28,804 bases of DNA from a virus: the IMG/VR virus record IMGVR_UViG_3300032304_000431, positions 1-28,804 of that record; one strand, written 5' to 3'. The position numbers and the translations under genes are program-made. The first letter of the stretch is position 1, and each line of letters begins with the position of its first letter. The notes below the pieces were generated by a model. It did no database searches and was not told the origin of the DNA. It was given only the letters and a program-made list of their open reading frames with translations. Below, one piece after another: positions 7,001 through 28,761 of the stretch.

Positions 7001-8534
7001 AATCATGCCGACTATGCGTAACTCTAAGGCCATATCATTGGACCCTATCGAGAAACGTGCGATGGATAACATGATTGGTCGCAACGTAGCTCAAGTCACA
7101 TTGGCTGGTGAATTGATGGCTCGTAAAACCGCAACGACTGAGCAAACTATTTCTACTACCCGTCGTGTTGTTAAAGGGGCTTGGTGGGGCGCTACCGGCG
7201 CGTTGATGCAAACAGCTGAACGCTTGGCGCAAGAGGCTGTGTTCCTGATGTCGTTCCGCTTGTCTCGCCGCAACGCTAAGGAAAAGTTCCGTAAAACAAA
7301 GGCATGGAAAGCCGCTCCCAACAAGGGGCAGGCTATGGCCGATTTTGACAACGCTAACTTCCAAGGTTGGATTGACCAAGCTGTACTTGATACTCACGAG
7401 TCGCTCGGTAACATGACTGCTGAGAACCGCCCACCTCTTATGCGCGGTTCATTTGGTAAGGTTGCGTTGCAGTTCCAAATGTTCCCGCTTCATAACTACA
7501 TCTTGCTCGGCAAGAACAGCATGAAAATGATTGGGTTGATGGATACTAAAGACCGCGCAGAAGCGGCAAAAACATTCTGGGGGCAAATGGGCACGACTGC
7601 TTTGTTAGCTGGCGCAGTCGGCGTGCCGGGAGTCTACACAATGATTGGTTTCCTGAGCGGTATGTGGCGTGACTTCTGGGATTGGTACGATGAAGAAAAC
7701 GAGCGCCCAGCTGACTTGCGCGAGATGGACTTCCAAACTTGGTTCCGTCAAAAGTTCTTGCCTGAGCAGTTAGGCAATGAGTGGGCTAAGCTGGTTGACC
7801 GAGGCGTTTTGAACTACGCTACTGGCGCAGACTTCTCCAGCCGTTTGAGCTTGTCTAATATGTGGCTACGCGAAAGCAAAGAAACCAAGACTGAACGCGA
7901 AGGTGTATCGCAATTTATTATTGACCACTTGGGCGCTACTGTAAGCCAAGCGCTTACCTTTGCCGATGGCTACGATGCGTTCAAGAAAGGTGACTGGCGC
8001 ACCGCCGGTGAAAAAATTGCCCCCGCGTTTGTCCGTAATTGGATGTTCATGGGTAAGCAGGCTGTTGAAGGTGCAAAAGATAGTAAGGGTAGCCAGCTTC
8101 TTTCTAAAGACGCGATTACCACAGGCGAGTTGGTTTGGCGCACTGTTGGCTTTAACTCTGACAAGTTAGCTGACCTCCAGACTAACAACTTCAAAGTGAT
8201 CGGCCTTCAGCAGAAGATTGACAACGAACGTGGGGATATTCTGCAACGCCTCGACCTACACCTGCGTAAAAACGACATGCGGGAATACAAGCGGGCGTGG
8301 GATGACATGGAGAAGTTCAATACCAAGTATCCGTGGGTGCAGATTGACGACATTGCTGAATCCATCGAGAGTAAGCAGCAGCAGCGTGGTGAGTCTTGGC
8401 GCGGCGTAAGAGTTACTGAGAAGAACGCTCCGTATGCTGTGGAAGCGTTGAAAAAATCTCGGCTCGCCGCCGCTGAAGCGGAAAGAGAAGGTAAGGAACG
8501 GATTGAGCTCAAAGGCATGGCAAAGAAGGAATAA
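1068..8534 (+). CDS. Giant virion/ejection-type protein, PLxRFG-like with HELLH motif
   Basis: A 2488-residue protein. I chose ATG 1068 because AAGG lies 7 nt upstream; an in-frame ATG at 1017 would overlap the previous gene and lacks a site. Visible parts: two tandem N-terminal repeats (residues about 5-25 and 27-47, cores VLVGGEWKPV and YLVGNEWMVD); a glycine/alanine-rich helical region around 315-480; two related helical repeats near 546 and 603; a GNAT-like segment near 830-910 ending in WYERNGFV; a coiled-coil region about 943-1021; a zinc metallopeptidase-like HELLH at 1284-1288; a block PYFSLVRRGNFW at 1690-1701 resembling the PLxRFG signature; hydrophobic stretches near 1915-1965 and 2170-2205. 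Giant proteins of this type are found in tailed phages and are thought to be packaged and ejected with the DNA. That role is inferred. It is the last gene of the rightward block. Confidence 0.85.
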   Translation: MALKTATNDQTGESVVLVGGEWKPVARIATNDKGGKAYLVGNEWMVDDAAPAAPVTEKATTPAQVQNTLAPDFSGGMDTGASEIMGVATPKKKSVLEGKQMPAPEPSPISRGVDPKFVASTNAYLDSLPRAERGLAVGQLQAKGGIYAQVAEAYVQRHEALDATAESPVTKRLDPRLEARTERKIAQGRGAEGAGPETAKDIRMGNDERLAQMTATPEDVIRIQEEYGISPKMSGIDETGRVIKRIGAKGVAAGQQGYYGVKQAFADFAGVEDEDTKTKLNNLDSMLKNMGESKSKPIQIIEGAAASIIQQAPAIIGGLLTGSEPLVLASMFTQAFGQSYDESRRLGLSSEESLARSAANASFELVGERLGLGATLKAIKASGRGIPLSELSAYYAKALAREIPGEEITYAGQFAVDKAHGLNKEAGVKQFIDGAVDTALATVTQAGMMYGGGAAANKLVKTVQNKGLGEEPEVQRPSYKRDQSYEGTAEAMMRQRGFLQPETKTAPAGNQQVPPADARVEPTLDNEALLKEQQVSSTPAAKEQKIAALADRIASRGVDPQDALRIAKLQVESDEQKKLAADEAAAEELPTYYPKEKNNRLNEIFLELVDQGVPPNKAQLMAGQQLAAEKEDRKIAAAQGRNIKKAKTNAATTTATTGATNVGQPITEAGGVSPKLAGQPDQNAPATGAGKLATDGVVSAGPDVTDATAGEAVKPSALTPKVELEVDSKEAYAERTKDEPNAPSYEDTDARVNRVADRYEQAGMPEKAAEARESLQKYRPNYMGTAEREAQQDKELAAKAPTKKKEATVKLDESGRGIVSNESVLGGLRRITEDDDITFDYPNRNGAVMLTGLDRQAGGEKGRASNALQALTKWADDNNEKLVLMPSASGELSQSDLTSWYERNGFVAQSDGAMERSPTAPAAVKETPAAKERAPLGTDPLFVYLDKRDALMTKLDVIQQQGDDLTDERDKLRDKGIQEGKGGSEYLDEMNEIDKQREAKNAEFYEIIRQIDELDAERAATRGAQVGTETTETKQAETQGQESAPAAEVKEKGKRGRKPLAPEQKSVSEQKRKQQRVEFNALNRKIDKIEADLNDAVTPINEEEMDTDEQIKSLEEEKRRKKNAAIRALYEISRTNQGAPGKRAAELLKNPAITKRELNDATAAYDLQKKLSGPSANRSSEGIPDPAFAKFKNGAQALTHIIKTSKNPFQKFLAERLRSAVAGVEFMVIEQGDPLPAVLQRPENAKEWERARGLFLQDGKKRYVFVRGTSFTGNVGANNITVLHELLHAATNKKLELGLLASYRGFDQDAKITKFVREINDQMNTAFQYYEYLESKGMAPIELRRLVQSTEEIDEETGEKDYGIFTLPQEFLAYGMSDPVFQEFLNQLPSNRKNMSGFTRFVTDILDLFGLGKDKLTALSDLINVTDQLLSAKKTPTMRLVEYGMPDESKPSRSASLPPEDEEEVKPGTLSKTASPDNRTAKEVMRDVDIAINQVAESRTAEELAKDTSVLQLATDPKALAGAARRMYDSASFESKRVLLNGATTDFMVEMGEREIPQLRTTYRYIQEMHGMTARLMEGAVDPSTVLFNVVKQDPTMMRPLYDLALESTLAEIDPSTDRRSAKLNAKYDALTAKAQNAYKAIRDYFTDMASLYSALLDDQVAELRISSEDKANLMAKLKTIYEVGGNIVPYFSLVRRGNFWLRVDGKGKERQFYMFRTMQERDKVASELAAKRKSSVDELKDSKEFETGNDIRSLRLDSYDNSAPKLTAVMDAVDNMKLTESDTSGTMEQRRERILEEKNKLKDAIYQMYLMSLPDQNFRKKFISREGVTGFTTDLMQNFSDTASAMSVQLARIKYGRKIRNSLLAARKSIENRGDLAPYTEEMEKRVNLELPVHYDESKITQYTDAAANFATRSAFLYFLSGASSALLQPISVIQFGLPLLGARHGYGATATEFARLLAVWNGYGMTRKNSDGSTTLIMPTMRNSKAISLDPIEKRAMDNMIGRNVAQVTLAGELMARKTATTEQTISTTRRVVKGAWWGATGALMQTAERLAQEAVFLMSFRLSRRNAKEKFRKTKAWKAAPNKGQAMADFDNANFQGWIDQAVLDTHESLGNMTAENRPPLMRGSFGKVALQFQMFPLHNYILLGKNSMKMIGLMDTKDRAEAAKTFWGQMGTTALLAGAVGVPGVYTMIGFLSGMWRDFWDWYDEENERPADLREMDFQTWFRQKFLPEQLGNEWAKLVDRGVLNYATGADFSSRLSLSNMWLRESKETKTEREGVSQFIIDHLGATVSQALTFADGYDAFKKGDWRTAGEKIAPAFVRNWMFMGKQAVEGAKDSKGSQLLSKDAITTGELVWRTVGFNSDKLADLQTNNFKVIGLQQKIDNERGDILQRLDLHLRKNDMREYKRAWDDMEKFNTKYPWVQIDDIAESIESKQQQRGESWRGVRVTEKNAPYAVEALKKSRLAAAEAEREGKERIELKGMAKKE

Positions 8535-8575: not shown

Positions 8576-8588
8576 CTAACATTGTTAG
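8576..8588. repeat. Dispersed palindrome, 13-bp form
   Basis: CTAACATTGTTAG, a perfect inverted repeat around one central base. It lies between the leftward terminator and the stop codon of the last leftward gene. This is the only 13-bp copy outside a coding sequence. Confidence 0.8.
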
Positions 8589-16321: not shown

Positions 16322-18128
16322 AGCTCTCTCCATATCCTGATTCACAGTTCAAGGGCAACTCCATGCCCCACTTGGGCCTGATGCGCATACACATCTCAAC
16401 GTATTCCTGCGCAGTCTTAACTTCTTCGGTGCGTACGATACACGCCACAGCATCATGCACGGTCATAACAACGTGGTACTTCTTGGCAATCATCAGCATT
16501 TGGTCGCCGATGATGATACGGGCTAGGGCTTGGCACACGTTCTCAATTACCTTACCGCCGTAGATACGGTTGGGGATTATGGCTCGGCCTTTCTTGGTGT
16601 CGTACACGATCTCGGTCTTGCCGTCGTCCTCGTTCGTTACCTTGCGTATGTTGGGGTAGCGTAGGTATAAGCCGTTGGGTAGCTTGACGCCGCCCTTACC
16701 TTCGATCTTCAGCACATCATCTCGACCTAACATTGTTAGTTGGTCTCTGAGAATTGCTTCAAGTGCCACACTAGCGGCTTTCCAAAGTTCAGTGATTCGG
16801 GGGTAAGTTTCACGGTAGGTGTCAATAATCCTTTTCGCCTCTTCAAGTGATACTTCCACTCCAAAATTTTTAAGTTGAGCTTTGAACTTCGCCGCGCCCA
16901 TCCCATACCCAGCCCCAAGGATAGTTGTCTTGCCCACGAAACGCTCGTCCTTTGTGATTTCTTCCACCGCCTTGCCGTAGATAGCCGATGCCATGATTTT
17001 GTATACATCTTCACCCCTATCAAATGCTTCAACCAAGTCGTCTTGCCCAGCTAGCCATGCCAGCGTACGGGCTTCAATCTGCGATGAGTCTGAGTCGACC
17101 ATCATGTAACCCGCAGGTGCAAGGATAGCCTTTTTCAGCGTCGAACCCCTCGGCAGGTTTTGCAGGTTTAGCTTGTCGTCACCACCCCACCGTCCTGTGT
17201 GGGCGGCGTAGTAGCGGAGGGGAACTGGCATTGAGCCTCGCCGAGCAATCCCAATAAAACGCTCTGTTCGTGACTCTTCAATCGTAGATTTTGTACCCAG
17301 CCGTGCGGCGACCAATGCTTGTACGCTTGGATTCTCGTGTTCGAGAAGTTCTTTGAACGCTTCATCTGTCTTTGCGAAGGCATAAGTTTCCTTTCCCGTA
17401 GCGGGGCTCTTCTTCATCGGCGGTGTGACACCATGCACCGTAAGCAACTCGGCGAACTTGGGGTTGCTCATCAACGTGTCTTTGTCGAAATTCTCCAGCA
17501 GCTCGGCCTTGCGTTGGCGCTCTTTGTGTAGGTGTACGTTCAGCATCCCTTCGTCCAGTTGCAAGACTGGCTCGGTGAACATACGGATGGTCAGGTCAAT
17601 CAGACGCAACTCAGTCGGCGGGAAGTCTTGGTTCATGCAGTTGAACAAGTCCCATGTCAGGCGTACGTCGTTCTTGCAGTACTCACCGTACTGAGCTAGC
17701 TGTAACGTAGGGAAGTCAGTGCGGCGTAAGCCTTTTGCATCGTTGACCTCAGTGCCCTTCTTGCCGATGCCGTAGAACTCCGCCAGAACCGCTAGGCTAC
17801 CGCCTACGTTCGTACCGTGAAGCGCCCGACCCATCGACAATGTATCTAACCAACCCTTCGGTTTGATTTGGAAGTGCTCGGTCAGGATGAACCCATCGAA
17901 CATTGCGTTGTGGGCTAGGGCGAGAGAGTTGGCCCAGTCGTAGTTCTTCAAAAAAGCGTAGGTGCTGAGCGTGTCCCCGCTGAACCACTCAGGCTCACCG
18001 TCATTGATCTGCACAGCAACACCCACAACTTCAAAGCGCGGGTCACGTACGTATTCTTCAGTAGTCTGTTTAGAGAACCCAAGGTCAGCGGAGTAGTAGG
18101 TCTCGAAATCGACCGTGATGATGTTCAT
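16308..18128 (-). CDS. Family A DNA polymerase with 3'-5' exonuclease domain
   Basis: A 606-residue replicative polymerase. Exonuclease: D7 and E9 in VDFET, N74 to D78 in HNAMFD, and Y150/D154 in YCKND. Polymerase: TGRW at 311-314, motif A DSSQIEAR with catalytic D347, motif B with R396, K400 and GYG at 407-409, and motif C VHDA with D559. The residue matching E. coli Phe762 is Leu404. Motif C reads HDA rather than the usual HDE; the metal-binding Asp is kept. The protein is shorter than bacterial Pol I because it lacks the 5' nuclease. It starts in an ATGA overlap with the VRR-NUC gene, and a 13-bp copy of the dispersed palindrome lies inside it. Confidence 0.96.
   Translation of the reverse strand: MNIITVDFETYYSADLGFSKQTTEEYVRDPRFEVVGVAVQINDGEPEWFSGDTLSTYAFLKNYDWANSLALAHNAMFDGFILTEHFQIKPKGWLDTLSMGRALHGTNVGGSLAVLAEFYGIGKKGTEVNDAKGLRRTDFPTLQLAQYGEYCKNDVRLTWDLFNCMNQDFPPTELRLIDLTIRMFTEPVLQLDEGMLNVHLHKERQRKAELLENFDKDTLMSNPKFAELLTVHGVTPPMKKSPATGKETYAFAKTDEAFKELLEHENPSVQALVAARLGTKSTIEESRTERFIGIARRGSMPVPLRYYAAHTGRWGGDDKLNLQNLPRGSTLKKAILAPAGYMMVDSDSSQIEARTLAWLAGQDDLVEAFDRGEDVYKIMASAIYGKAVEEITKDERFVGKTTILGAGYGMGAAKFKAQLKNFGVEVSLEEAKRIIDTYRETYPRITELWKAASVALEAILRDQLTMLGRDDVLKIEGKGGVKLPNGLYLRYPNIRKVTNEDDGKTEIVYDTKKGRAIIPNRIYGGKVIENVCQALARIIIGDQMLMIAKKYHVVMTVHDAVACIVRTEEVKTAQEYVEMCMRIRPKWGMELPLNCESGYGESYGDC
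16727..16739. repeat. Dispersed palindrome, 13-bp form, inside polymerase gene
   Basis: CTAACATTGTTAG. On the coding strand it encodes Leu-Thr-Met-Leu and starts at codon position 1. Confidence 0.8.
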
Positions 18129-18430
18129 TTAGCTCTGTCCTTACACTCTTGGATTACTTCTTTTAGGTAGTCGATGTTGGTCTCTCTAACCACCAACGTA
18201 TATCCACCAGCCGCATTTACTTCTTTTAGATTTTTCCACTGCAACGCAGTAGGTTCGCCCTTGCCAGCCTTCGCTTCGATCGCCACAAAAAACCCGTTCA
18301 CACAGCACAAGAAGTCAGGGACTCCACTGTTGCCGTACCCCGTGCCCATAGGCATCGCGTAGTACACGCCGTGCTCTTTCAGAACCTTCTTTATCTTCTC
18401 TTTGACTTTTGCTTCGGGTGTTGACGCCAT
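18125..18430 (-). CDS. VRR-NUC domain nuclease
   Basis: A 101-residue protein that is essentially a single VRR-NUC domain: E6, D39 in SGVPDFL, E52 and K54 in VAIEAKAGKG, then Q64 in TALQ, in the order of the PD-(D/E)XK catalytic set. Stand-alone phage VRR-NUC proteins are thought to be structure-specific endonucleases, such as Holliday-junction resolvases. ATG 18430 has GGAG at 4-nt spacing. An in-frame ATG at 18469 falls inside a copy of the dispersed palindrome, as in four other genes here, but has no good ribosome binding site. It is first in the polymerase/nuclease run and is linked to the polymerase by an ATGA overlap. Confidence 0.9.
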   Translation of the reverse strand: MASTPEAKVKEKIKKVLKEHGVYYAMPMGTGYGNSGVPDFLCCVNGFFVAIEAKAGKGEPTALQWKNLKEVNAAGGYTLVVRETNIDYLKEVIQECKDRAK

Positions 18431-18462
18431 GATACTCCAATATTGTACTTTGTCAAGAGGGT

Positions 18463-18476
18463 CTAACATTTGTTAG
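18463..18476. repeat. Dispersed palindrome, 14-bp form
   Basis: CTAACATTTGTTAG, 32 bp upstream of the chosen VRR-NUC start and between it and the candidate structured RNA. It contains an in-frame ATG for that gene. Confidence 0.85.
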
Positions 18477-18628: not shown

Positions 18629-18853
18629 TTACGGATTGGCGGTAGTAACCTCGCCAAAAAGACCTCTTGACCAAAGCATGTGTGTTTCTTTCACAGCGCC
18701 AGCGTCTTCCAAAGCAAACACCGTGTACGTATGGGTATTACGGTTGGGGTAGCCCGGCCCGACAAAGATAGATGCGTTACGGTAGTGTGGTACATACAAA
18801 ACGTCATTGAGCCTGTACGTGGCGGTTGAGTAGCGTTCTACTGAGTCGCTCAT
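18629..18853 (-). CDS. Small unknown protein
   Basis: A 74-residue protein with a beta-rich, Tyr/Thr/Asn-rich composition, such as NRNTHTYTVFALEDAG. It starts in an ATGA overlap with the DUF3310 gene, with AAGGAG 7 nt upstream, so it is very likely translated. No signal peptide, membrane segment or known motif is visible. It is the last gene before the candidate structured RNA. Confidence 0.7.
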   Translation of the reverse strand: MSDSVERYSTATYRLNDVLYVPHYRNASIFVGPGYPNRNTHTYTVFALEDAGAVKETHMLWSRGLFGEVTTANP

Positions 18854-19380
18854 GCTTGCTCCTTACCGAACTTGGCTATCTCGCGGTTCAAATACCAACG
18901 TGCTTTGAGTAGGTCTTCCTCTCGGTTGCCTTTGCTGTCGGCACGAGCAATGTACTTCACCACGTTACCAAGGTGGTAGCTCAGGTTCTTCGCCTCTATG
19001 AAGTCGATGGTCTCGATACCGCCTACCTTGTAATGAGCAGGTTGATTGACGTTGTCGGCTTGCGGTTCTTCCATCGTGACTTTGTCTTCCATCATCGGCA
19101 TCCCCTGCATCAGAATATTGCCTGTCACTGGGTGCATACGAGTACGGCCTTGGGTCAGTTCAAAGATTCGCTCGGCTTCTTCCTTGAACGGCATCGCTGG
19201 CGTATTGCTCGTAGACAGAGACACGGTCTTCCAACCCTTCCTGTCGCTGTGTCGAATAGCGTATACGTAACCAATGTCTGCGCCGGTAGCTTTTGCCACT
19301 TGTGATGCGGTTGCGTTCGGGTGCTTCACTTGGTACGCACGTACTTGTTCTGCTTTGCTCAGTTTTTTAGCTGTTGCCAT
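18850..19380 (-). CDS. DUF3310 protein with N-terminal HTH-like segment
   Basis: A 176-residue protein. ATG 19380 has GGAG 9 nt upstream and overlaps the end of the RHH-like gene by 14 bp. The C-terminal 65 residues match the DUF3310 (SaV-like) family: NQPAHYKVGGIETIDFIEA, then VVKYIARADSKGN, then LLKARWYLNREI. This domain is common in phages and is often loosely called a nucleotide kinase, but its activity is not well established. The N-terminus (residues about 8-45) looks like a helix-turn-helix, with HPNATASQVAKATGADIGYVYAI, so the protein may also bind DNA. The middle is low-complexity and methionine-rich. Confidence 0.88.
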   Translation of the reverse strand: MATAKKLSKAEQVRAYQVKHPNATASQVAKATGADIGYVYAIRHSDRKGWKTVSLSTSNTPAMPFKEEAERIFELTQGRTRMHPVTGNILMQGMPMMEDKVTMEEPQADNVNQPAHYKVGGIETIDFIEAKNLSYHLGNVVKYIARADSKGNREEDLLKARWYLNREIAKFGKEQA

Positions 19381-19579
19381 TTTCAAATTCTCCAGTTTGG
19401 GTTTGTACATAATTCGCAAGAACTTCACGGATTTTGACCTGCTTGTTGGGAAAGGTCTCGAAATAATCGACTACCTCTCGCGGCAAACGCAAGCTCGTAT
19501 TAACAAGGGTCGGCTTCTTGCTTGGACCGCGCCCTTGTCGTTTTTTCTCTGGTTTTAGATATTCAATTCCTGTTGTCAT
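19367..19579 (-). CDS. Ribbon-helix-helix-like DNA-binding protein
   Basis: A 70-residue protein. A very basic N-terminus (EKKRQGRGPSKKP) is followed by a short beta strand VNTSLRLP, a helix REVVDYFETF and a second helix KIREVLANYVQ. This is the strand-helix-helix order of RHH proteins and resembles the C-terminal half of BrnA-type antitoxins. RHH dimers usually bind short inverted repeats, so this is the second candidate reader of the CTAACA palindromes. No BrnT-like toxin is evident beside it. The start overlaps the previous stop as ATGA; GAGG lies about 10 nt upstream. Confidence 0.75.
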   Translation of the reverse strand: MTTGIEYLKPEKKRQGRGPSKKPTLVNTSLRLPREVVDYFETFPNKQVKIREVLANYVQTQTGEFENGNS

Positions 19580-21676: not shown

Positions 21677-22540
21677 TTACCATTCAAACTTCTGCAAAAT
21701 TGCGTCTACCTTGTTCTTCAAGTTCTCACGAACCATCGAACTCTCTTTGATGTACTCAATGTCAGCACCTAACATTGTTAGTTCCAACTGCTTACGCGCC
21801 TCCTCTAGCTTGGGGTCGTTCGTAATGTTCATCTTGTCCAGCAACCCGCACAAGTCCACAGCGTTGGTCACAAGCGAATCGTGGTAACGCTTCTTGGACT
21901 CCTTGCCCTCGTCACCCTCCTCGTCGGTTAATTTTTTACTCATCGCACTCAACACCTCATGCAGTCGTTCCCAAGGTGTACGCATAGCCTCGGCCAGTCG
22001 CTCATCGAACTTGGCTTCATACTGCTGCTTCATTTCATCTAAGTCATGCGCTGATATGTCCAAGCGAAAGTCACCTGACTCGGGTATCGGGTCGATCGCC
22101 ATGCGGAACCCGAACTTGTTTCTGACATCTGTCAGATCGGGGTAATCATCTGCCCGATACATCGTGCCCAAGTGCGTCTGTGCCTCGTTCACTAGGCGTG
22201 GGTACTCGAAGAAGAAGTTGTTACACATCTGCTTGAACTGCACCTCGTAGCTGTTCATCGTCTGCTTGTACTCCATGAACAACTTAGTCGGCAACAGTCG
22301 TTGGCCTTTGTCTGCCCAAGGTAACGTATGCTGATTGTGGTAAAGGCGTATCCGCGCCGCGAGCTTCTCGATGTCTTTGCGTAGGCTAGTACCTGCAAAT
22401 AGATTCTTCCGCGTCTGTGACGCATCACGTACCGCTGACGCATTGGTGTTCACCGTGTCAGTCATCTCTCGGTCAACCTTGTTGGCTGGCCACACACTTA
22501 TGTTCAGTTCCACTAGAACCGCGCTTGATGCAATACTCAT
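21677..22540 (-). CDS. DUF3150-like protein
   Basis: A 287-residue protein. ATG 22540 has GGAGG 6 nt upstream, overlapping the VWA gene's last codons; a longer frame to 22657 is unlikely. The central part (FFFEYPRLVNEAQTHLG, then the MYRADDYPD and FGFRMAIDPIP blocks) resembles the DUF3150 family, in which a Tyr-Pro, a Leu-Gly and a Asp-Tyr-Pro landmark occur in this order. DUF3150 genes are often found beside MoxR-type AAA+ and VWA genes on phages and mobile elements, exactly as here. The role is unknown. The C-terminal third is charged and helical. A 13-bp palindrome copy lies in the gene. The assignment is from memory of the pattern, not a search. Confidence 0.65.
   Translation of the reverse strand: MSIASSAVLVELNISVWPANKVDREMTDTVNTNASAVRDASQTRKNLFAGTSLRKDIEKLAARIRLYHNQHTLPWADKGQRLLPTKLFMEYKQTMNSYEVQFKQMCNNFFFEYPRLVNEAQTHLGTMYRADDYPDLTDVRNKFGFRMAIDPIPESGDFRLDISAHDLDEMKQQYEAKFDERLAEAMRTPWERLHEVLSAMSKKLTDEEGDEGKESKKRYHDSLVTNAVDLCGLLDKMNITNDPKLEEARKQLELTMLGADIEYIKESSMVRENLKNKVDAILQKFEW
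21769..21781. repeat. Dispersed palindrome, 13-bp form, inside DUF3150-like gene
   Basis: CTAACATTGTTAG. On the coding strand it starts at codon position 1 and encodes Leu-Thr-Met-Leu, the same reading as in the polymerase gene. Confidence 0.8.
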
Positions 22541-22541
22541 A

Positions 22542-23765
22542 TCAATCCTCCAAGTAAATAGTTTTGCCATGCTCTGATACCGCGCTTGTGTTGCCACCAC
22601 TGATGACCCACATAGTCGGCGCTGTCCACTCGTCACCCCAATTCGGTACATACCCATCGGTCAACACGATCACGCACTCGGGCTTGATGTTCTCGTCACG
22701 CAAGTACTTGGATACGCAAGAAGGGTCAGTACCCCCGCCACCCTTGGGCTTGGTTGAACTAACAATGTTAGATACCGCCGACCCCTCATACTTCTCATGC
22801 CCTGCTACCTCGCCGTCCCAATAGATCAAGTCCACCACCTCGGGGCTTACTTCTTCTGCGATACCCTGTACCTCGGACAAGAACTCAGCAAGCTCAGGCC
22901 CACCGATACTTCCCGATGTGTCGATAGCCACAACCAAGTGACCAACCTTCTCGCCGATCATGCTAGGCATATACGTACCCGTACTCAGGAATCGACGGTT
23001 GACCCTGCGCCATGAACTTGTGTCTTTGTTAGAACACGTAGCCTTGACGAAGTCGCGCAACACCTCACGCCAATCAATCTTGGGTGCGAGTAAGTCTTCA
23101 AGCTCACGGTCTAGTCCGCCGCCGCCCTTGCCCACTTGCTTCTGGTGTGCGATCAAGCCTTGACGAATCGCTTGGTCAATCTCACGCGCCAACTCCTTCT
23201 TGTCTTCATCGGACAAGCCTTCCGCACCTTCCCAGTCATGCTCGTCAAAGCCATCACCACCTTCATCACCTTCGCCACCCCCCTCTTCCTCCTTCTCCTG
23301 CTTGAGAATGTCGAACACTTGCTTGGTGTTCATACCTCGGAACCGCTCGTCAACCAAGCCCATGTAGTCACCCTTCTTACCCTTGGGGTGTCCTGTGTCC
23401 TCGGTGAACCGTGGCATGGCGATCACCGATTCGTTAGGGTCTAAGTCCTTGAGCATCAAGTTAATCACGTAGTCCATCGCGCTGTTGGCCATACGTGCGT
23501 CCTCGGTGTGCAACTTAGTCCACGTTGTCAGGTGTCGGTACATCTTGTGACCCGCTTCGTGTGCGATCACAAACGCCAACTCCCTGTCGTTCAACTTCTT
23601 CACAAACTCGCGCCCATACATCTCGTCGCGTCCGTTGGTACACGCTGTCGGTATGTCGTCACGCACATGGGTCTTGCCCACCATCATCACGCCTTGTAGT
23701 AGTGCGAACTTGGGGTTACGCATCACCGTGATCTTCGCCTTCTGCAATTTACGTTCTTCTAACAT
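22542..23765 (-). CDS. Metallopeptidase-like plus VWA domain protein (DUF2201 type)
   Basis: A 407-residue protein. The N-terminal domain has a zinc-binding HEAGH at 69-73 and a helix SAMDYVIN typical of the DUF2201 putative metallopeptidase domain. A Glu/Gly-rich acidic linker (about 155-185) and a charged helical region follow. The C-terminal VWA domain has an intact MIDAS: DTSGS at 282-286, T346 in GGGGTDPS and D370 in LTDGY. The VWA protein is expected to partner the MoxR ATPase encoded two genes upstream. Its start codon lies inside a 14-bp copy of the dispersed palindrome, with AAGGAG just before it. A 13-bp copy lies within the coding region. The biological role in phages is not known. 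Confidence 0.9.
   Translation of the reverse strand: MLEERKLQKAKITVMRNPKFALLQGVMMVGKTHVRDDIPTACTNGRDEMYGREFVKKLNDRELAFVIAHEAGHKMYRHLTTWTKLHTEDARMANSAMDYVINLMLKDLDPNESVIAMPRFTEDTGHPKGKKGDYMGLVDERFRGMNTKQVFDILKQEKEEEGGGEGDEGGDGFDEHDWEGAEGLSDEDKKELAREIDQAIRQGLIAHQKQVGKGGGGLDRELEDLLAPKIDWREVLRDFVKATCSNKDTSSWRRVNRRFLSTGTYMPSMIGEKVGHLVVAIDTSGSIGGPELAEFLSEVQGIAEEVSPEVVDLIYWDGEVAGHEKYEGSAVSNIVSSTKPKGGGGTDPSCVSKYLRDENIKPECVIVLTDGYVPNWGDEWTAPTMWVISGGNTSAVSEHGKTIYLED
22759..22771. repeat. Dispersed palindrome, 13-bp form, inside VWA gene
   Basis: CTAACAATGTTAG. On the coding strand it starts at codon position 2 and encodes the Ser-Asn-Ile-Val-Ser stretch. Confidence 0.8.
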
Positions 23766-23772
23766 TTGTTAG
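23759..23772. repeat. Dispersed palindrome, 14-bp form, over VWA start codon
   Basis: CTAACATTTGTTAG. The minus-strand ATG at 23765 is the VWA start codon. The ribosome binding site lies immediately beside it. Confidence 0.85.
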
Positions 23773-23778
23773 TTCTCC

Positions 23779-24144
23779 TTAAAAATCTGTTTCAATAGTT
23801 CTAACTGACCGCACTTGGTTGTCGGCGTAATCCGATTGGGTCTCCTCAATGTCACCCGCATCTTCACCTAGGCGCACAAACTCGTAGCACCATCGGATTT
23901 CCTCCTGCTCTGCTAACTCCAAGAAGTTAGACACGAACGCATTGAACGCTTGCACCTCGGGGTAGCTGTCGTACCACTTCACGTGCTGGTCTTCAAACAT
24001 ATACCCTGCGTAGTACTTGTTCTTTATTGGTCGCAAGTTCCCCGCCAACTCCTCGGGAAAGTTCTCGTCCACGAACAGCTTCACAGCCGCCGCCTTGTCG
24101 GGCGTTGCATAGAACGCCGCCGCCACATCACTTCGATAGCCCAT
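23779..24144 (-). CDS. Conserved-looking small phage protein
   Basis: A 121-residue acidic protein beginning MGYRSDVAAAFY, a start I associate with small phage proteins of unknown role. It has a helix with Lys/Glu (TPDKAAAVKLFVDENF), a Tyr/Phe-rich middle (YAGYMFEDQHVKWYDSYPE) and an acidic C-terminal region (GEDAGDIEETQSDYAD). GGAGG with close spacing precedes ATG 24144, and the gene overlaps the upstream one by 17 bp. It lies between the MoxR and VWA genes, so it may be an adaptor or substrate of that pair; this is inference from position only. Confidence 0.8.
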   Translation of the reverse strand: MGYRSDVAAAFYATPDKAAAVKLFVDENFPEELAGNLRPIKNKYYAGYMFEDQHVKWYDSYPEVQAFNAFVSNFLELAEQEEIRWCYEFVRLGEDAGDIEETQSDYADNQVRSVRTIETDF

Positions 24145-24349
24145 CTGATTCCTCCTCGATTGAATTTAATAACTTACACAAACCATCCGCTTGCTCTTTC
24201 TCTGATACGGGGAATGTCTGTACGGTTCTCTTTTCTTTCCAGTCGTACAGCCACCACCCCGCCTGTCGCAACCACACAGACCCACTACCATCCCTGATCT
24301 CTGTGGTCATGGTTCGCACGTTGTACCGTGGGTTGTGCCCGTATAACAT
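24128..24349 (-). CDS. Small unknown protein downstream of MoxR ATPase
   Basis: A 73-residue protein. Its start ATG 24349 lies in a palindrome copy shared with the stop codon of the MoxR gene (TAACAAATG), which suggests translational coupling since no GGAG precedes it. An alternative start at ATG 24310 would give a 60-residue product, also without a good ribosome binding site. It includes a Trp-rich strand pair (SVWLRQAGWWLYDW) and an acidic C-terminus. No recognised family. Confidence 0.7.
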   Translation of the reverse strand: MLYGHNPRYNVRTMTTEIRDGSGSVWLRQAGWWLYDWKEKRTVQTFPVSEKEQADGLCKLLNSIEEESDGLSK

Positions 24350-24356
24350 TTGTTAG
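24343..24356. repeat. Dispersed palindrome, 14-bp form with one mismatch
   Basis: ATAACATTTGTTAG; the first base deviates from the consensus C. It carries both the MoxR stop codon and the next gene's start codon. Confidence 0.75.
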
Positions 24357-25417
24357 AGCAAGTCTTGGTTCTTAGCAACCCAGTCGGCGAACGCCTTAGC
24401 GCCGAACGCAATGGACTGCTTCGATGGTGTCTTCGCAATGTTGATAGCGAACACGGCTTGCCACTCGGCGTCGAACCTCTCCAAGTACTCCATGAATGGG
24501 GCAATGTTGGTCTTGTCGATACGTGCGATAGCACCGAACACCACAATCGCACAAGCGCCCGGACTTGTGGGTACCTTCGTATGCTTAGGGTCTTTGATGG
24601 TGTCTTCCCATGATGGGAGTTGGTCAGAGAACTCGATGTACGCTTGCATATCACGCGCCGCCGCTTCACCAATCGCACCACTGAGCGCCGCAATCACCGA
24701 GTCAGGGTCATTCTGTTTACGTGTACTAACAATGTTAGATGCCGTTGCAAGTGAGCGTGGTGAAACAAACGCAACCTGTGGTTTCTTGGGGTTGAAGATG
24801 TACGGGTTGTCGCCTTGTCCTGCGTCCGTATAGCTTGCCATTGCATGAGGGAATCGGTTAACCCAAGCAAGCACCTCGGCCTCGATGCCGTTGTTCATAC
24901 CCCAATCAATCCATTCCTCGGATGTCGGCTTGGCAATAGTCACGGGCACGATACGGTTCAGACTGTGCGCCTTGATGCTGTCACCCACACCATCGGTACT
25001 CAGGTTACCTGTGAGAAAACAAATCGTGTCTTTGGGCAATGGGATGTCGCCGAGTCGCGGGTTCGCCTTCTCAAGCATGGGGTGCAACATATTCTTAACT
25101 GGGTCAGCGCCTTTGCTGAACTCGTCGAGCATGATGACCATCGGCTTGCCTGTATGAATACCGAATCGGGCATTGGGGTAGTACCGAGTCGTCTTCGTCT
25201 CATGGTCAATCACGGGCATTGCAATGTCGCCCAAGTCCATGTTCGGCACGTCGATGTAGGCATAGTCATAGCCTAGTGGTGCGGCGATTGCTTCTAGTAG
25301 AGAAGACTTACCAATTCCGGGTTCACCACGTAGCATGAACCTTGTGGTCGGGTTGGTGCGAATCAGGTTCGCGGCTTGCTTCAATGTGATGCTCTTACCA
25401 AATTTAACTTCTGACAT
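24353..25417 (-). CDS. MoxR-type AAA+ ATPase
   Basis: A 354-residue ATPase. ATG 25417 has AAGGA 7 nt upstream; an ATG two codons earlier is too close. Motifs: Walker A GEPGIGKS at 31-38, Walker B VIMLDEF at 94-100, sensor 1 asparagine in LTGN at 138, and an Asn-Arg pair at 154-155 as arginine-finger candidate. The DVPNMDLGDI segment after Walker A and the overall length fit MoxR-like proteins, which remodel partner complexes with VWA proteins. It is the first gene after the 25503-25531 promoter and precedes the VWA and DUF3150-like genes. A 13-bp palindrome copy lies inside. The substrate is unknown. Confidence 0.93.
   Translation of the reverse strand: MSEVKFGKSITLKQAANLIRTNPTTRFMLRGEPGIGKSSLLEAIAAPLGYDYAYIDVPNMDLGDIAMPVIDHETKTTRYYPNARFGIHTGKPMVIMLDEFSKGADPVKNMLHPMLEKANPRLGDIPLPKDTICFLTGNLSTDGVGDSIKAHSLNRIVPVTIAKPTSEEWIDWGMNNGIEAEVLAWVNRFPHAMASYTDAGQGDNPYIFNPKKPQVAFVSPRSLATASNIVSTRKQNDPDSVIAALSGAIGEAAARDMQAYIEFSDQLPSWEDTIKDPKHTKVPTSPGACAIVVFGAIARIDKTNIAPFMEYLERFDAEWQAVFAINIAKTPSKQSIAFGAKAFADWVAKNQDLL
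24726..24738. repeat. Dispersed palindrome, 13-bp form, inside MoxR gene
   Basis: CTAACAATGTTAG. On the coding strand it starts at codon position 2 and encodes Ser-Asn-Ile-Val-Ser, as in the VWA gene. Confidence 0.8.
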
Positions 25418-25439
25418 TTTCATTTCCTTCGTTTAGTTT

Positions 25440-25453
25440 CTAACATTTGTTAG
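25440..25453. repeat. Dispersed palindrome, 14-bp form, in MoxR leader
   Basis: CTAACATTTGTTAG in the untranslated leader of the MoxR gene, 49 bp downstream of the -10 box of the 25503-25531 promoter. A TTGGC/GCCAA stem lies just before it in the RNA. Confidence 0.85.
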
Positions 25454-25502
25454 ATTGGCGGGACTGCCAACCCAACACCTCAACTTCTCTACCTCACCAT
25501 AT

Positions 25503-25531
25503 ATTGTATCACACAAACTATACATTGTCAA
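25503..25531 (-). promoter_or_regulatory. Strong sigma70-like leftward promoter of the MoxR operon
   Basis: On the minus strand, TTGACA (25526-25531), a 17-nt spacer and TACAAT (25503-25508). It lies in the 163-bp gap between the 339-aa gene and the MoxR gene. The following leader resembles that of the 28085-28113 promoter over the first 25 bases and around the palindrome. Confidence 0.85.
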
Positions 25532-25570
25532 GTGTATGGGCGTGTCTATCCCCGTGTATATATCTGTGTC

Positions 25571-25584
25571 CTAACATTTGTTAG
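25571..25584. repeat. Dispersed palindrome, 14-bp form, over stop of 339-aa gene
   Basis: CTAACATTTGTTAG, containing the TAA stop of the 339-aa gene and an ATG followed by only 18 more sense codons (25518-25577). It lies 39 bp upstream of the -35 box of the MoxR promoter. Confidence 0.85.
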
Positions 25585-26600
25585 ATGTCCTCCTCCGTCT
25601 TTACGTAGCTGTCGTACTTGCCAGTCGGCACTTTGCCTTCGGGCAACTGCACCTTCGTGAACACCTTGTCGGCGAACATGGTCATCAGAATCTTGTCCAA
25701 CACTTTCTCGAACTGCCCCACGCCCAGCGTTATGGGATGGTCTAGGTTCTCGCGCCAATACAAACTCTGCCCTTGAAGCATCAGCACGTTGAACGCAATC
25801 CAGTAGTTTTGATGGCGTGCGTCATCATCTTGGTCATTCCGTACTAGGTCGAAGAACTTTTCAGACTTCTCGCGGTATTTCTGCCACGCCGTATCCTTGT
25901 TCACGCCGCCGTAGTACTTGGGCTTCTCGCTCAGCTTGTCCCACCAATCTGTATTGGGTCGGACTCGTGGGTCACCTTGGGTTTCATCATCTTTGCCGAA
26001 CACCTCGATCAACTCTGCATACGTTGTTTTGACCACAGTAAAAGGCTCACGCCCCCACATACTCTCAACTTCCGTGCCTTTGAGTTTGGTTACTCCGCTG
26101 ACGTAGTCCTTGAACATCGACACCTGCTTCCTAACATTGTTAGCTTCTTTGCGGCTCACTCGATAGTCGTAGAGCGTCTGCTTCACCTTCGGCATCCACC
26201 GCCCGTTGTCCCGCACCAACACCAGTTCCCCCTTCGCGGGAAGCATCGCCTTGGAGTTGTCGGCAAAATGCAACACCACCTCACCACGCACTCGGTTGGC
26301 GGTCACAGTCGGCACAATCCTAGATATGAATTGGCACGTTGACGCACTCGGCCAGTTGTCTATGTTGATGATGATCTCGTCCTCCACCGTGAACTTGACC
26401 ACGGGCGTCTTGTATAGGATGCACTCGATCGCCTCTGTCCATACGTTTTTGCGTACGCTGTACGTGTCCACATACCTGCGCTCACCCAATGGCCTTGGGT
26501 CATCAGCCCTACCCTTGATGGGCTTGGTGTTGTTGTATTTCTGCAACGCTTCTTTGTAGTCGCGTATCCGTGGCACATTCATTACTGTTGCGTATCCCAT
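25581..26600 (-). CDS. Unknown 339-aa protein upstream of the MoxR module
   Basis: A 339-residue protein with GGAG 7 nt before ATG 26600. It begins MGYATVMNVPRIRDY and continues with a basic region PIKGRADDPRPLGERRYVD, an acidic beta-rich stretch (VKFTVEDEIIINIDNW), and later aromatic, charged helices (KYREKSEKFFDLV and a WIAFNVLMLQ segment). No catalytic motif is recognised. It ends at a palindrome copy and is separated from the MoxR operon by its own promoter. Being last of the first transcription unit, it may be under different control. One 13-bp palindrome copy lies within it. Confidence 0.8.
   Translation of the reverse strand: MGYATVMNVPRIRDYKEALQKYNNTKPIKGRADDPRPLGERRYVDTYSVRKNVWTEAIECILYKTPVVKFTVEDEIIINIDNWPSASTCQFISRIVPTVTANRVRGEVVLHFADNSKAMLPAKGELVLVRDNGRWMPKVKQTLYDYRVSRKEANNVRKQVSMFKDYVSGVTKLKGTEVESMWGREPFTVVKTTYAELIEVFGKDDETQGDPRVRPNTDWWDKLSEKPKYYGGVNKDTAWQKYREKSEKFFDLVRNDQDDDARHQNYWIAFNVLMLQGQSLYWRENLDHPITLGVGQFEKVLDKILMTMFADKVFTKVQLPEGKVPTGKYDSYVKTEEDI
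26131..26143. repeat. Dispersed palindrome, 13-bp form, inside 339-aa gene
   Basis: CTAACATTGTTAG. On the coding strand it starts at codon position 2 and encodes Ala-Asn-Asn-Val-Arg, a different peptide from the other copies. Confidence 0.8.
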
Positions 26601-26617
26601 TACATCTCTCCTTTAAA

Positions 26618-26812
26618 TTAAACCGAAGCCAGTGCAACCGTTGCCCTATCTCTCAACTGCATCATCAGCCCTTGCGGGTTGCGCCCTAGCTTCTTCGCTA
26701 GTTGGCACATTGCGTTACGCTTTGCGTTGTCGATACTTGTGGTCGTGGTGTAGAACGTCAGGATTTCCCCTGCGTTGTTGACTGTCACTTTGAACTTGTG
26801 CTTTTCTAACAT
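26618..26812 (-). CDS. Small unknown protein
   Basis: A 64-residue basic protein. ATG 26812 lies inside a palindrome copy, with GGAGGA 7 nt upstream. It reads as a beta hairpin (KFKVTVNNAGEILTFYTTTT), a helix IDNAKRNAMCQLAKKLG and a short end. The two-strand/helix layout could be a small nucleic-acid-binding fold, but no family is recognised. Confidence 0.75.
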   Translation of the reverse strand: MLEKHKFKVTVNNAGEILTFYTTTTSIDNAKRNAMCQLAKKLGRNPQGLMMQLRDRATVALASV

Positions 26813-26819
26813 TTGTTAG
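26806..26819. repeat. Dispersed palindrome, 14-bp form, stop-start junction
   Basis: CTAACATTTGTTAG. On the minus strand it holds the TAA of the 26816-27010 gene and the ATG of the 26618-26812 gene (TAACAAATG). Confidence 0.85.
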
Positions 26820-27010
26820 TCCTCCATCCATGCGGGTTGCCGTTGCTCAATAGTTACGCCGTACCCAAGCGCCTGTATCGCCTTGAGGTCGGATGGTCGA
26901 AGCGTGGTTGTCCCTGCAATGTCGGCAAACAGTTGCGCCTTGTCGCACACGGGATACACCTTGTCCACTCCGTATACTGTCTTAATACGTACCACAATGT
27001 TCTCATTCAT
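26816..27010 (-). CDS. Small unknown protein
   Basis: A 64-residue protein: a beta-rich N-terminus (IVVRIKTVYGVDKVYPVCD), a helix around KAQLFADIAG, a TLRPSDLKAIQALGY segment and a final strand. The start overlaps the previous stop as ATGA, with GGAGG nearby. Its stop codon lies within a palindrome copy. No known family. Confidence 0.75.
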   Translation of the reverse strand: MNENIVVRIKTVYGVDKVYPVCDKAQLFADIAGTTTLRPSDLKAIQALGYGVTIEQRQPAWMED

Positions 27011-27174
27011 TCTGTAACCTCCTCAATACCTGTGATGTTTGACTCGGCAAGGCCGAAGTCGTCGGGGTTCCACTTCATCCATGCGGCCAACTCTGCGGCC
27101 TCCACGCTGTCGGCTTCCACCTCAATGATGGTTGTCTCGGTGCGCTCAATCGTCACCTTATATGCTTTACTCAT
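27007..27174 (-). CDS. Small unknown protein
   Basis: A 55-residue protein. ATG 27174 is preceded by GAGGAG at 7-nt spacing; a longer frame to 27198 has no such site. It starts as a beta strand (KAYKVTIERTETTIIEVEAD), followed by an acidic helix SVEAAELAAWM and an acidic end. It overlaps the upstream gene by 8 bp and the downstream gene by 4. No recognised function. Confidence 0.75.
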   Translation of the reverse strand: MSKAYKVTIERTETTIIEVEADSVEAAELAAWMKWNPDDFGLAESNITGIEEVTE

Positions 27175-27364
27175 CTTCGCTCTCCTCGTCGGCATCATTG
27201 CCGCAGTCCACGTCCCACTCGGTCTGCGCCATGTCTTTCACGTCGGCCTCGCTCATGTAGCCAAGGCAAGCGTGGGCAAGCATCTCCCATGTCATCTCTC
27301 CCTCGTACACCATGTCGAGTACCTTGTTGGTGTAGATTCGTGCGTAGTTGGTGTTGTAAGTCAT
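27167..27364 (-). CDS. Small acidic unknown protein
   Basis: A 65-residue acidic protein. The N-terminus is Tyr/Asn-rich and helical (YARIYTNKVLDMVYEG), then TWEMLAHACLGYMSEADVK, and the C-terminus is a run of Asp and Glu. It starts in an ATGA overlap with the zinc-ribbon gene. Highly acidic small proteins in phage early regions sometimes mimic DNA or bind host regulators; that is only a possibility here. The ribosome binding site is weak. Confidence 0.7.
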   Translation of the reverse strand: MTYNTNYARIYTNKVLDMVYEGEMTWEMLAHACLGYMSEADVKDMAQTEWDVDCGNDADEESEDE

Positions 27365-27597
27365 AAACGATTTTCTTTCGGGTTAGTCTGTCGTAGGGTT
27401 GCGTGTGCTGACGTAGTTGTAACTAACTGATAGTTACCCTTGGTGTATTCCTGTATAACGCACCACGAAGTACGTTCTGTCTTGGCTCGGTCTTCGCCGC
27501 AGAACTTGCAGTAGTGGTAGCCAAGCGCCCAACGCTCGATGTGTACGTCATCACCGCAGTCGATACATTCTTTCCAGTTGCCGTGTGTTTCTAACAT
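27361..27597 (-). CDS. Small zinc-ribbon protein
   Basis: A 78-residue protein with two CxxC knuckles, CIDCG (residues about 11-15) and CKFCG (30-34), a typical zinc ribbon. The rest is Thr/Gln/Arg-rich with a basic C-terminus. Small zinc-ribbon proteins are common in phage early regions and may bind DNA, RNA or host proteins. ATG 27597 lies inside a palindrome copy, with a GGAG site just before it. It ends in an ATGA overlap with the next gene. Confidence 0.8.
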   Translation of the reverse strand: MLETHGNWKECIDCGDDVHIERWALGYHYCKFCGEDRAKTERTSWCVIQEYTKGNYQLVTTTSAHATLRQTNPKENRL

Positions 27598-27604
27598 TTG
27601 TTAG
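27591..27604. repeat. Dispersed palindrome, 14-bp form, stop-start junction
   Basis: CTAACATTTGTTAG. On the minus strand it holds the stop codon of the 69-aa gene and the start codon of the zinc-ribbon gene. Confidence 0.85.
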
Positions 27605-27997: not shown

Positions 27998-28022
27998 TGT
28001 GTATTCCTTTGTTACGTTGTTT

Positions 28023-28036
28023 CTAACAAATGTTAG
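28023..28036. repeat. Dispersed palindrome, 14-bp form, in first leader
   Basis: CTAACAAATGTTAG in the leader of the first leftward gene, 48 bp downstream of the -10 box. This matches the 49-bp distance at the MoxR promoter. Confidence 0.85.
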
Positions 28037-28084
28037 ATTCGGACTAGAAGCGGGTTTTGTTACACTTTCTCCACTTCAACCTAT

Positions 28085-28113
28085 ATTGTACCACAAAGTT
28101 ATGGGTTTGTCAA
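28085..28113 (-). promoter_or_regulatory. Strong sigma70-like leftward promoter
   Basis: On the minus strand, TTGACA (28108-28113), a 17-nt spacer and TACAAT (28085-28090), both near consensus. It is 88 bp upstream of the first leftward gene and shares leader features with the MoxR promoter. Confidence 0.87.
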
Positions 28114-28489
28114 GTATTCGGCTGATTGCATAGTTTGTAACTTTGTGATGTGGGTTGCTTGGGTTGTTACGTTTTGAGGGGCAATGTTATGTAATGATGT
28201 AATGGAAAAAAGGGTGAATGTAACAAAAGATGTAACAATGTGAAATGGCTTAACGGTGCGGGTTACGAAAGAAAAAATGATGTAATGTTACTTTGTTATA
28301 TAAAAATAGAAATAGAGAGAGCGGCGTCTAAAAGTTGGTGTATTACGAATTGCCCAAATTGTGGTGCGAATTGCACTCGCAGAGAAGGTCTTTGTCTCAG
28401 GTTTGCCGACTCTCAATATGCCCAAAACACGTTACATTATAACAATACCCCGCCAACCCGCATGGTTGAGCCATTTGTTTCGTTACACT

Positions 28490-28518
28490 TTGACAATGTA
28501 AAATCATAACAATATGAA
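28490..28518 (+). promoter_or_regulatory. Possible rightward promoter
   Basis: TTGACA (28490-28495), a 17-nt spacer and TATGAA (28513-28518), a weaker -10. A 14-bp palindrome begins 33 bp downstream. If active, it would be divergent from the leftward promoter. No rightward gene is visible before the window ends. Confidence 0.4.
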
Positions 28519-28551
28519 AAACGTAACAAAACCACGTAACAAAGCCACGTT

Positions 28552-28565
28552 CTAACAAATGTTAG
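28552..28565. repeat. Dispersed palindrome, 14-bp form
   Basis: CTAACAAATGTTAG in the control region, downstream of the possible rightward promoter and close to the last GTAAC motifs. Confidence 0.85.
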
Positions 28566-28741: not shown

Positions 28742-28761
28742 AAACCCGCCGAAGCGGGTTT
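28742..28761 (-). terminator. Leftward intrinsic terminator
   Basis: An 8-bp stem AAACCCGC/GCGGGTTT with a TTCG tetraloop on the minus strand, followed there by a run of eight T residues (28737-28744, partly within the stem). It would stop leftward transcription entering from the right. A smaller ACTAGGG/CCCTAGT hairpin follows at about 28768-28785. Confidence 0.8.

Follow-up and report, generated by a model that had tools for sequence, protein, structure and literature searches.

A dispersed palindrome in the early genes of a freshwater phage and its relatives, and a variable early protein as the candidate reader of the sites

The virus record IMGVR_UViG_3300032304_000431 of IMG/VR is a 28.8 kb fragment of a freshwater phage, and all 28,804 nucleotides of it were analysed here (hereafter the window). 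Its early genes carry a short palindrome that is dispersed over them in many copies. Long members of the phage family to which it belongs are about 61-74 kb in length, with late and structural genes located mainly on one strand and a divergent early block of about 20 kb, which encodes a MoxR-type ATPase, a VWA-type protein, DNA polymerase, helicases and a RecB-like nuclease. Relatives of the window were gathered via MoxR and DNA polymerase, and in the complete ones the first early gene, here called E1, encodes a highly variable and fast-evolving protein of about 160-195 aa. Judging from sequence comparison, the palindromes look like many-copy docking sites for a DNA-binding protein that the phage itself encodes, most likely E1.

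The palindromes of the early region

Nine exact copies of the 14-bp palindrome CTAACATTTGTTAG and a tenth copy with one mismatch are present in the window (Table 1), where about 0.3 would be expected, so that the palindrome described in an earlier note on this DNA is real; copies in leaders and at promoters, as well as the 13-mers and the CTGACA-type site given below, had escaped that note. When up to two mismatches were allowed on both strands, 19 matches were found against 0.29 expected, and none of 100 shuffled sequences contained as many. A gap-aware search further identified six copies of a 13-bp form, CTAACAWTGTTAG, and a CTGACA-type site, CTGACAGATGTCAG, occurs once. The two major forms occupy different places: of the six 13-mers, five are intragenic, whereas all ten 14-mers lie outside genes or at gene ends (0/10 inside genes; Fisher P = 0.001), and those at 25440, 28023, 28552 and 28714 contain no start or stop codon at all.

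Four spellings of the palindrome are found among the relatives, i.e. CTAACA-N-TGTTAG (13), CTAACA-NN-TGTTAG (14A), CTGACA-NN-TGTCAG (14G) and CTAACA-NNN-TGTTAG (15), one of which is usually dominant in a given genome; we refer to these spellings as dialects. Exact sites number 66 across 208 kb of early-strand DNA from 11 complete genomes, whereas 433 kb of their late DNA contain none. Whatever the dialect, nearly all genomes have a site 38-55 bp beyond the -10 of near-consensus sigma-70 early promoters, namely those of the leader and of moxR, while the third early promoter, which precedes the VRR-NUC/polymerase genes, has its site upstream of the -35. In the window, the leader promoter P1 is paired with one 14-mer, the moxR promoter P2 with two, and P3 with one (Table 1); P1 and P2 were also the top two matches of a separate promoter scan. 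E1 itself is bracketed by sites: one of the dialect type stands upstream of it in 55 of 58 cases, and in 52 of 59 one follows it at a distance of no more than 120 bp, one arm mismatch being allowed.

These positions bear on two ways in which the sites might serve something other than repression. A phage protein, E1 or another, could activate or antiterminate early transcription by acting at the promoter exit and along the operon, since the sites follow strong promoters and recur further along the transcribed operon. However, near-consensus promoters should not require an activator, and the bracketing of E1 by sites is the usual layout of negative autoregulation; we regard such a role as unlikely. 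Alternatively, the palindrome could partition or compact the phage DNA in the manner of ParB or KorB and have no part in transcription control. KorB of plasmid RK2, a member of the ParB family, acts in long-range gene silencing (PMC11790492). Against this very improbable role, the sites are confined to the early operon and keep set distances from promoters, E1 gave no match to ParB in Pfam or PHROGs, and even spacing of the sites showed no overall significance.

The leader stretch 28010-28541 is rich in the hexamers TGTTAC, GTAACA, TGTAAC and GTTACA, with 13 of the 37 found window-wide lying in 28020-28560, and these hexamers possibly represent a second short motif.

Codons, dialects and selection on the DNA

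According to the earlier note, the palindrome embeds the stop codon of one gene and the start codon of the next. The embedding itself is real: ORFs that begin with ATG-TTA (Met-Leu) open within the palindrome at 23765, 24349, 26812 and 27597, stop codons lie in it at 24353, 25581, 26816 and 27601, and a Shine-Dalgarno sequence directly precedes three of the four starts (23765, 26812 and 27597). The start at 24349 lacks one and was not sustained as a gene start, the gene caller placing the start at 24310. A similar ORF start at 18469, which also lacks a Shine-Dalgarno sequence and overlaps promoter-like sequence, was rejected.

That the embedding is the purpose of the element, on the other hand, does not agree with a census of 202 sites, drawn from 19 related genomes or contigs. 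Of these sites, 79 are intergenic, 61 lie inside genes (~30%), 26 contain both a start and a stop, 23 a stop and 13 a start, so that a start codon is held by 39 of the 202, or about a fifth. As most sites are not at starts, codon embedding appears to be secondary; it looks like a side effect of putting an element that contains TAA (or TGA) and ATG at tight junctions. The protein that carries the KFKVTVNN motif illustrates this, for its N-terminus follows the dialect: it begins with ML- at a CTAACA-type site (MLEKH in the window, MLDAKEKF in G003 with a 13-mer site), with MS- at a CTGACA-type site (MSEITHKQ in G004) and with ME- where there is no site (MEKHK in G002). Orthologous N-termini that change with the site show codon embedding as a consequence of site placement. 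Synonymous codons and N-terminal residues such as Met-Leu and Met-Ser in phage genes can be determined by a DNA site, and should be read with caution.

It is most improbable that the palindrome works in RNA, as a hairpin that masks the start codon and so regulates translation. A stem of 5-6 bp that takes in part of the AUG is possible, yet such stems are weak (-1.1 to -4.7 kcal/mol), most sites are away from starts, the site centres occur in both orientations, and sites are found upstream of promoters as well.

Evidence for selection on the DNA comes from sites inside genes. The near-invariant MoxR peptide TASNIVRTR has a perfect 13-mer in its coding sequence in 42 of the 46 phages whose remaining sites are mainly 13-mers, but is written without a palindrome in 20 of 29 14A phages, both 14G phages and all three 15-mer phages. 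Likewise, 33 of 42 13-dialect phages have the 13-mer in the VWA gene, against only one of 25 14A phages, that one being the window; in all three CTGACA phages the same position carries CTGACATTTGTCAG, with the peptide changed from VSNIVSST to VSDICQTT. At two positions in the gene that occupies 21677-22540 in the window, the preference is for different dialects: the 405 site belongs to the 14-mer dialects (16 of 25 14A against 2 of 41 13-dialect phages), and the 750 site is a 13-mer in 33 of 38 13-dialect phages but in one of 25 14A phages. Fisher P for the VWA, 405 and 750 comparisons ranges from 3e-7 to 4e-12, with relatedness ignored. These patterns point to selection on the DNA for sites that match the reader of their own genome.

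The window is the only 14-mer-majority phage compared that has 13-mers at both the VWA and the 750 positions. Since its 14-mers lie outside genes and its 13-mers mostly inside, the simplest reading is that it has recently undergone a change of dialect, in which the noncoding sites were rewritten before the intragenic ones.

The same observations bear on a further proposal of the earlier note, namely that identical 14-mers mark the points at which gene cassettes are exchanged by recombination. Early gene content does differ among the relatives, and some of the junctions carry a copy. Intragenic sites that hold their positions by means of synonymous codons and are respelled by dialect, and fixed distances to promoters, are nevertheless not what identical 14-mers at exchange points would be expected to give, nor does exchange predict the intragenic share of the sites; the proposal found no support, and we give it very little probability. 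The outcome that the earlier note named as refuting, relatives that retain a gene junction without the palindrome, holds for the exact 14-mer, the spelling being changed or the site shifted, but not for the palindrome class as a whole. The idea that a protein binds DNA at these sites is, by contrast, strongly supported. Its tie to start codons did not hold, for the sites are found in leaders, at promoters, at stops and in gene interiors as well.

E1 as the candidate reader of the sites

Four motifs in E1 go with the four dialects, NPSxxWxRVR with 13-mers, YWxRVK with 14A, NIDxMWSRVKD with CTGACA sites and NFSVVKGRIR with 15-mers. When dialect changes were counted on gene trees of the same taxa (MoxR, VWA, terminase, RHH, DUF3310 and others, three mixed phages uncounted), the E1 tree required 2-5 changes and the other trees 3-8, with E1 having the fewest in each comparison. 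Furthermore, E1 type and dialect both differ between G001 and each of G002 and G003, although their MoxR proteins are ~97% identical. A ranking of about 36 families by excess dialect association, made over 12 complete genomes, placed E1 second (permutation P 0.016, uncorrected). The two main types of E1 are related by homology (hhalign 97%), and both are predicted to be all-helical or nearly so (mean pLDDT 77-79).

Two other genes were considered as the regulator and rejected. The gene at 19367-19579 in the window (minus strand) encodes a small ribbon-helix-helix (RHH)-like protein, kept in many relatives and with a weak PHROG antitoxin match, whose tree required 5 dialect changes against 2 for E1. 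That at 18850-19428 (minus strand) encodes a DUF3310/nucleotide-kinase-like protein in which the N-terminal helix-turn-helix (HTH)-like region and the middle linker are extremely variable and the C-terminal domain is conserved; its tree required 6 changes, again against 2. Some relatives have an additional RHH-like gene in the part of the leader that separates E1 from the early operon (G015 6861-7283 and G004 415-924, these being oriented contigs of L153 and L124).

The reader could also be a host protein, e.g. a nucleoid factor of the MatP or Noc kind, with the dialect following the host species. matS, the site GTGACRNYGTCAC, is similar to the CTAAC-AWT-GTTAG layout. On the other hand, phages with ~97% identical MoxR differ in dialect along with a swapped E1, the dialect fits the E1 tree best, single genomes can be mixed, and the sites lie close to phage promoters; we consider a host reader quite improbable.

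We favour, with moderate confidence, the reading in which E1, bound to the palindromes as operators and stoperators, switches off the early operon to which it belongs. Each palindrome would be occupied by a symmetric protein, presumably dimeric. The sites beyond the -10 of the leader and moxR promoters, together with that of the third promoter, would act as operators, and those at gene junctions or within genes would be stoperators that stand in the way of RNA polymerase. As E1 accumulated, the early operon would be turned down, including the site-bracketed gene of E1 itself. The dialect, in its spacing as well as its arm sequence, would be matched to the version of E1, and a change in E1 would be followed by a rewriting of the sites in the early region, first the noncoding and later the intragenic ones; the window would have been caught midway, with 14-mers outside genes and older 13-mers inside, and its E1 would be expected to be of the 14-mer type. 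A wider proposal, which we put forward only tentatively, is that lytic phages possess an operator "language", made up of a new family of helical regulators (E1) and at least a dozen sites, some of them within conserved coding sequence, and that its dialect is switched wholesale. The driving force may be that a phage thereby evades silencing by relatives that infect the same cell, which would be superinfection immunity of a non-lysogenic kind.

Several observations weigh against E1 as the reader. E1 has no convincing match in Pfam or PHROGs, repressors included, and searches of the PDB by sequence and by fold gave none. Its association with dialect is correlative and has mismatches: L179/G020 (beta-type E1 with 13-mers), and L004 and L030/G031 (both alpha-like E1 with 14-mers). 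A small, patchily present late gene outranks E1 in dialect association in the 12 complete genomes. The phages are not independent samples, nine 14A phages retain the 13-mer in moxR, and the window, G003 and G005 are of mixed dialect. In addition, the E1 gene of the window lies beyond the contig end, with at most a final D-L-K-stop possibly visible.

The nearest named phages by DNA polymerase are Rhizobium phage RHph_TM3_14A and Pseudomonas phages KPP25 and Rollin (33-36% identity), and no named phage was found to resemble the early region at the DNA level. Neither a tyrosine integrase (PF00589) nor a serine resolvase (PF00239) was matched in 12 long relatives, so these phages are probably lytic. 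No Rfam match or tRNA was found, and a host search through bacterial genomes found no relative. The product of 22542-23765 in the window (minus strand) carries the PHROGs label "HNH endonuclease", yet it has a DTSGS motif typical of VWA/MIDAS and its gene lies near that of the MoxR-type ATPase; the label looks wrong for this family.

Table 1. Palindromic sites, promoters and terminator-like hairpin in the window
Position	Strand	Feature
28742..28761	-	Terminator-like hairpin, probably at the end of the E1 gene (E1 beyond the contig end)
28714..28727		14-mer site in leader, directly after the terminator; counterpart of the site following E1 in relatives
28552..28565		14-mer site in leader
28085..28113	-	Promoter P1, TTGACA-N17-TACAAT
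28023..28036		14-mer site, 49 bp beyond the P1 -10
27591..27604		14-mer site with stop of gene ending 27601 and start of gene at 27597
26806..26819		14-mer site with stop of gene ending 26816 and start of gene at 26812
26131..26143		13-mer site within gene 25581-26600
25571..25584		14-mer site at stop of gene 25581-26600; 40 bp upstream of the P2 -35
25503..25531	-	Promoter P2 (moxR), TTGACA-N17-TACAAT
25440..25453		14-mer site, 50 bp beyond the P2 -10
24726..24738		13-mer site within moxR, coding for part of TASNIVSTR
24343..24356		One-mismatch 14-mer with moxR stop
23759..23772		14-mer site with start of VWA-type gene
22759..22771		13-mer site within VWA-type gene
22122..22135		CTGACAGATGTCAG site within gene 21677-22540 (405 site)
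21769..21781		13-mer site within gene 21677-22540 (750 site)
18463..18476		14-mer site, 7 bp upstream of the P3 -35
18429..18456	-	Promoter-like P3, TTGACA-N16-TATCAT
16727..16739		13-mer site within DNA polymerase gene
8576..8588		13-mer site between convergent gene blocks

Comparison with known systems

The closest parallel is found in the Cluster A mycobacteriophages (L5, Bxb1, TipsytheTRex), each genome of which carries 20-30 short stoperator sites, some at promoters and most in transcribed DNA, with a phage-specific consensus that diverges along with the phage's own regulator (PMC6550527, PMC9283540). As in those phages, numerous short sites that follow a single consensus are spread over transcribed DNA in the family described here, and some of them are at promoters. 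The consensus here may change in company with the regulator, as the dialect has the fewest changes, with a few exceptions, on the tree of E1, the putative regulator. In contrast, the 13-mers of Cluster A are asymmetric and mostly point the same way, whereas the sites here are palindromes of 13, 14 or 15 bp with centres both ways, about 30% of them intragenic; the Cluster A reader is a monomeric two-domain repressor, whereas E1 has no detectable similarity to known repressors; and the Cluster A phages are temperate, whereas the long relatives here gave no integrase or resolvase match.

Dispersed 22-bp repeats of the T1-like lytic phages (T1, Stevie, TLS) have been likened to stoperators (PMC4319613, PMC11447400). 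As described there, the repeats are asymmetric, predominantly intergenic and oriented with transcription, with an unknown role and no named partner protein, while the sites here are palindromic. The Start-Associated Sequences of Cluster K mycobacteriophages are short repeats near the starts of non-structural genes only, sometimes together with an upstream stop (PMC3203893). They are non-palindromic, contain the Shine-Dalgarno sequence and stand nearly all directly before starts (3-7 bp), unlike the palindromes here, of which only the minority counted above hold a start and which have the Shine-Dalgarno sequence outside the site.

A palindrome of its own, GTTACC-N6-GGTAAC, was found in the distant cultured relative RHph_TM3_14A (L336, 12000-60889; DNA polymerase 36%), with 33 copies at a match of at least 11/12 and none in shuffles. 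Like the sites here, these copies lie mostly in the early block and also inside genes, although sequence and spacing differ. Being in culture, this phage gives laboratory access to such a system. One of them is located 4 bp beyond the -10 of a promoter-like sequence. That E1 and the gene heading the early operon of this phage are homologous was not supported, despite a resemblance between ANISKLRQLI and ANIDKMWSRI. The same de novo palindrome search in the first 50 kb of Pseudomonas phage KPP25 gave nothing comparable.

Stoperators have been worked out in temperate actinobacteriophages, and the repeats of lytic phages that were likened to them had no known role in the literature consulted. The present family provides many natural variants in which a candidate regulator and the sites have changed together, and in which the coding sequence serves as an internal control that records the old dialect. 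It thereby opens to test how the specificity of a regulator can evolve if at least a dozen sites have to follow, and whether early shut-off or the exclusion of relatives is among the uses that lytic phages make of such systems.

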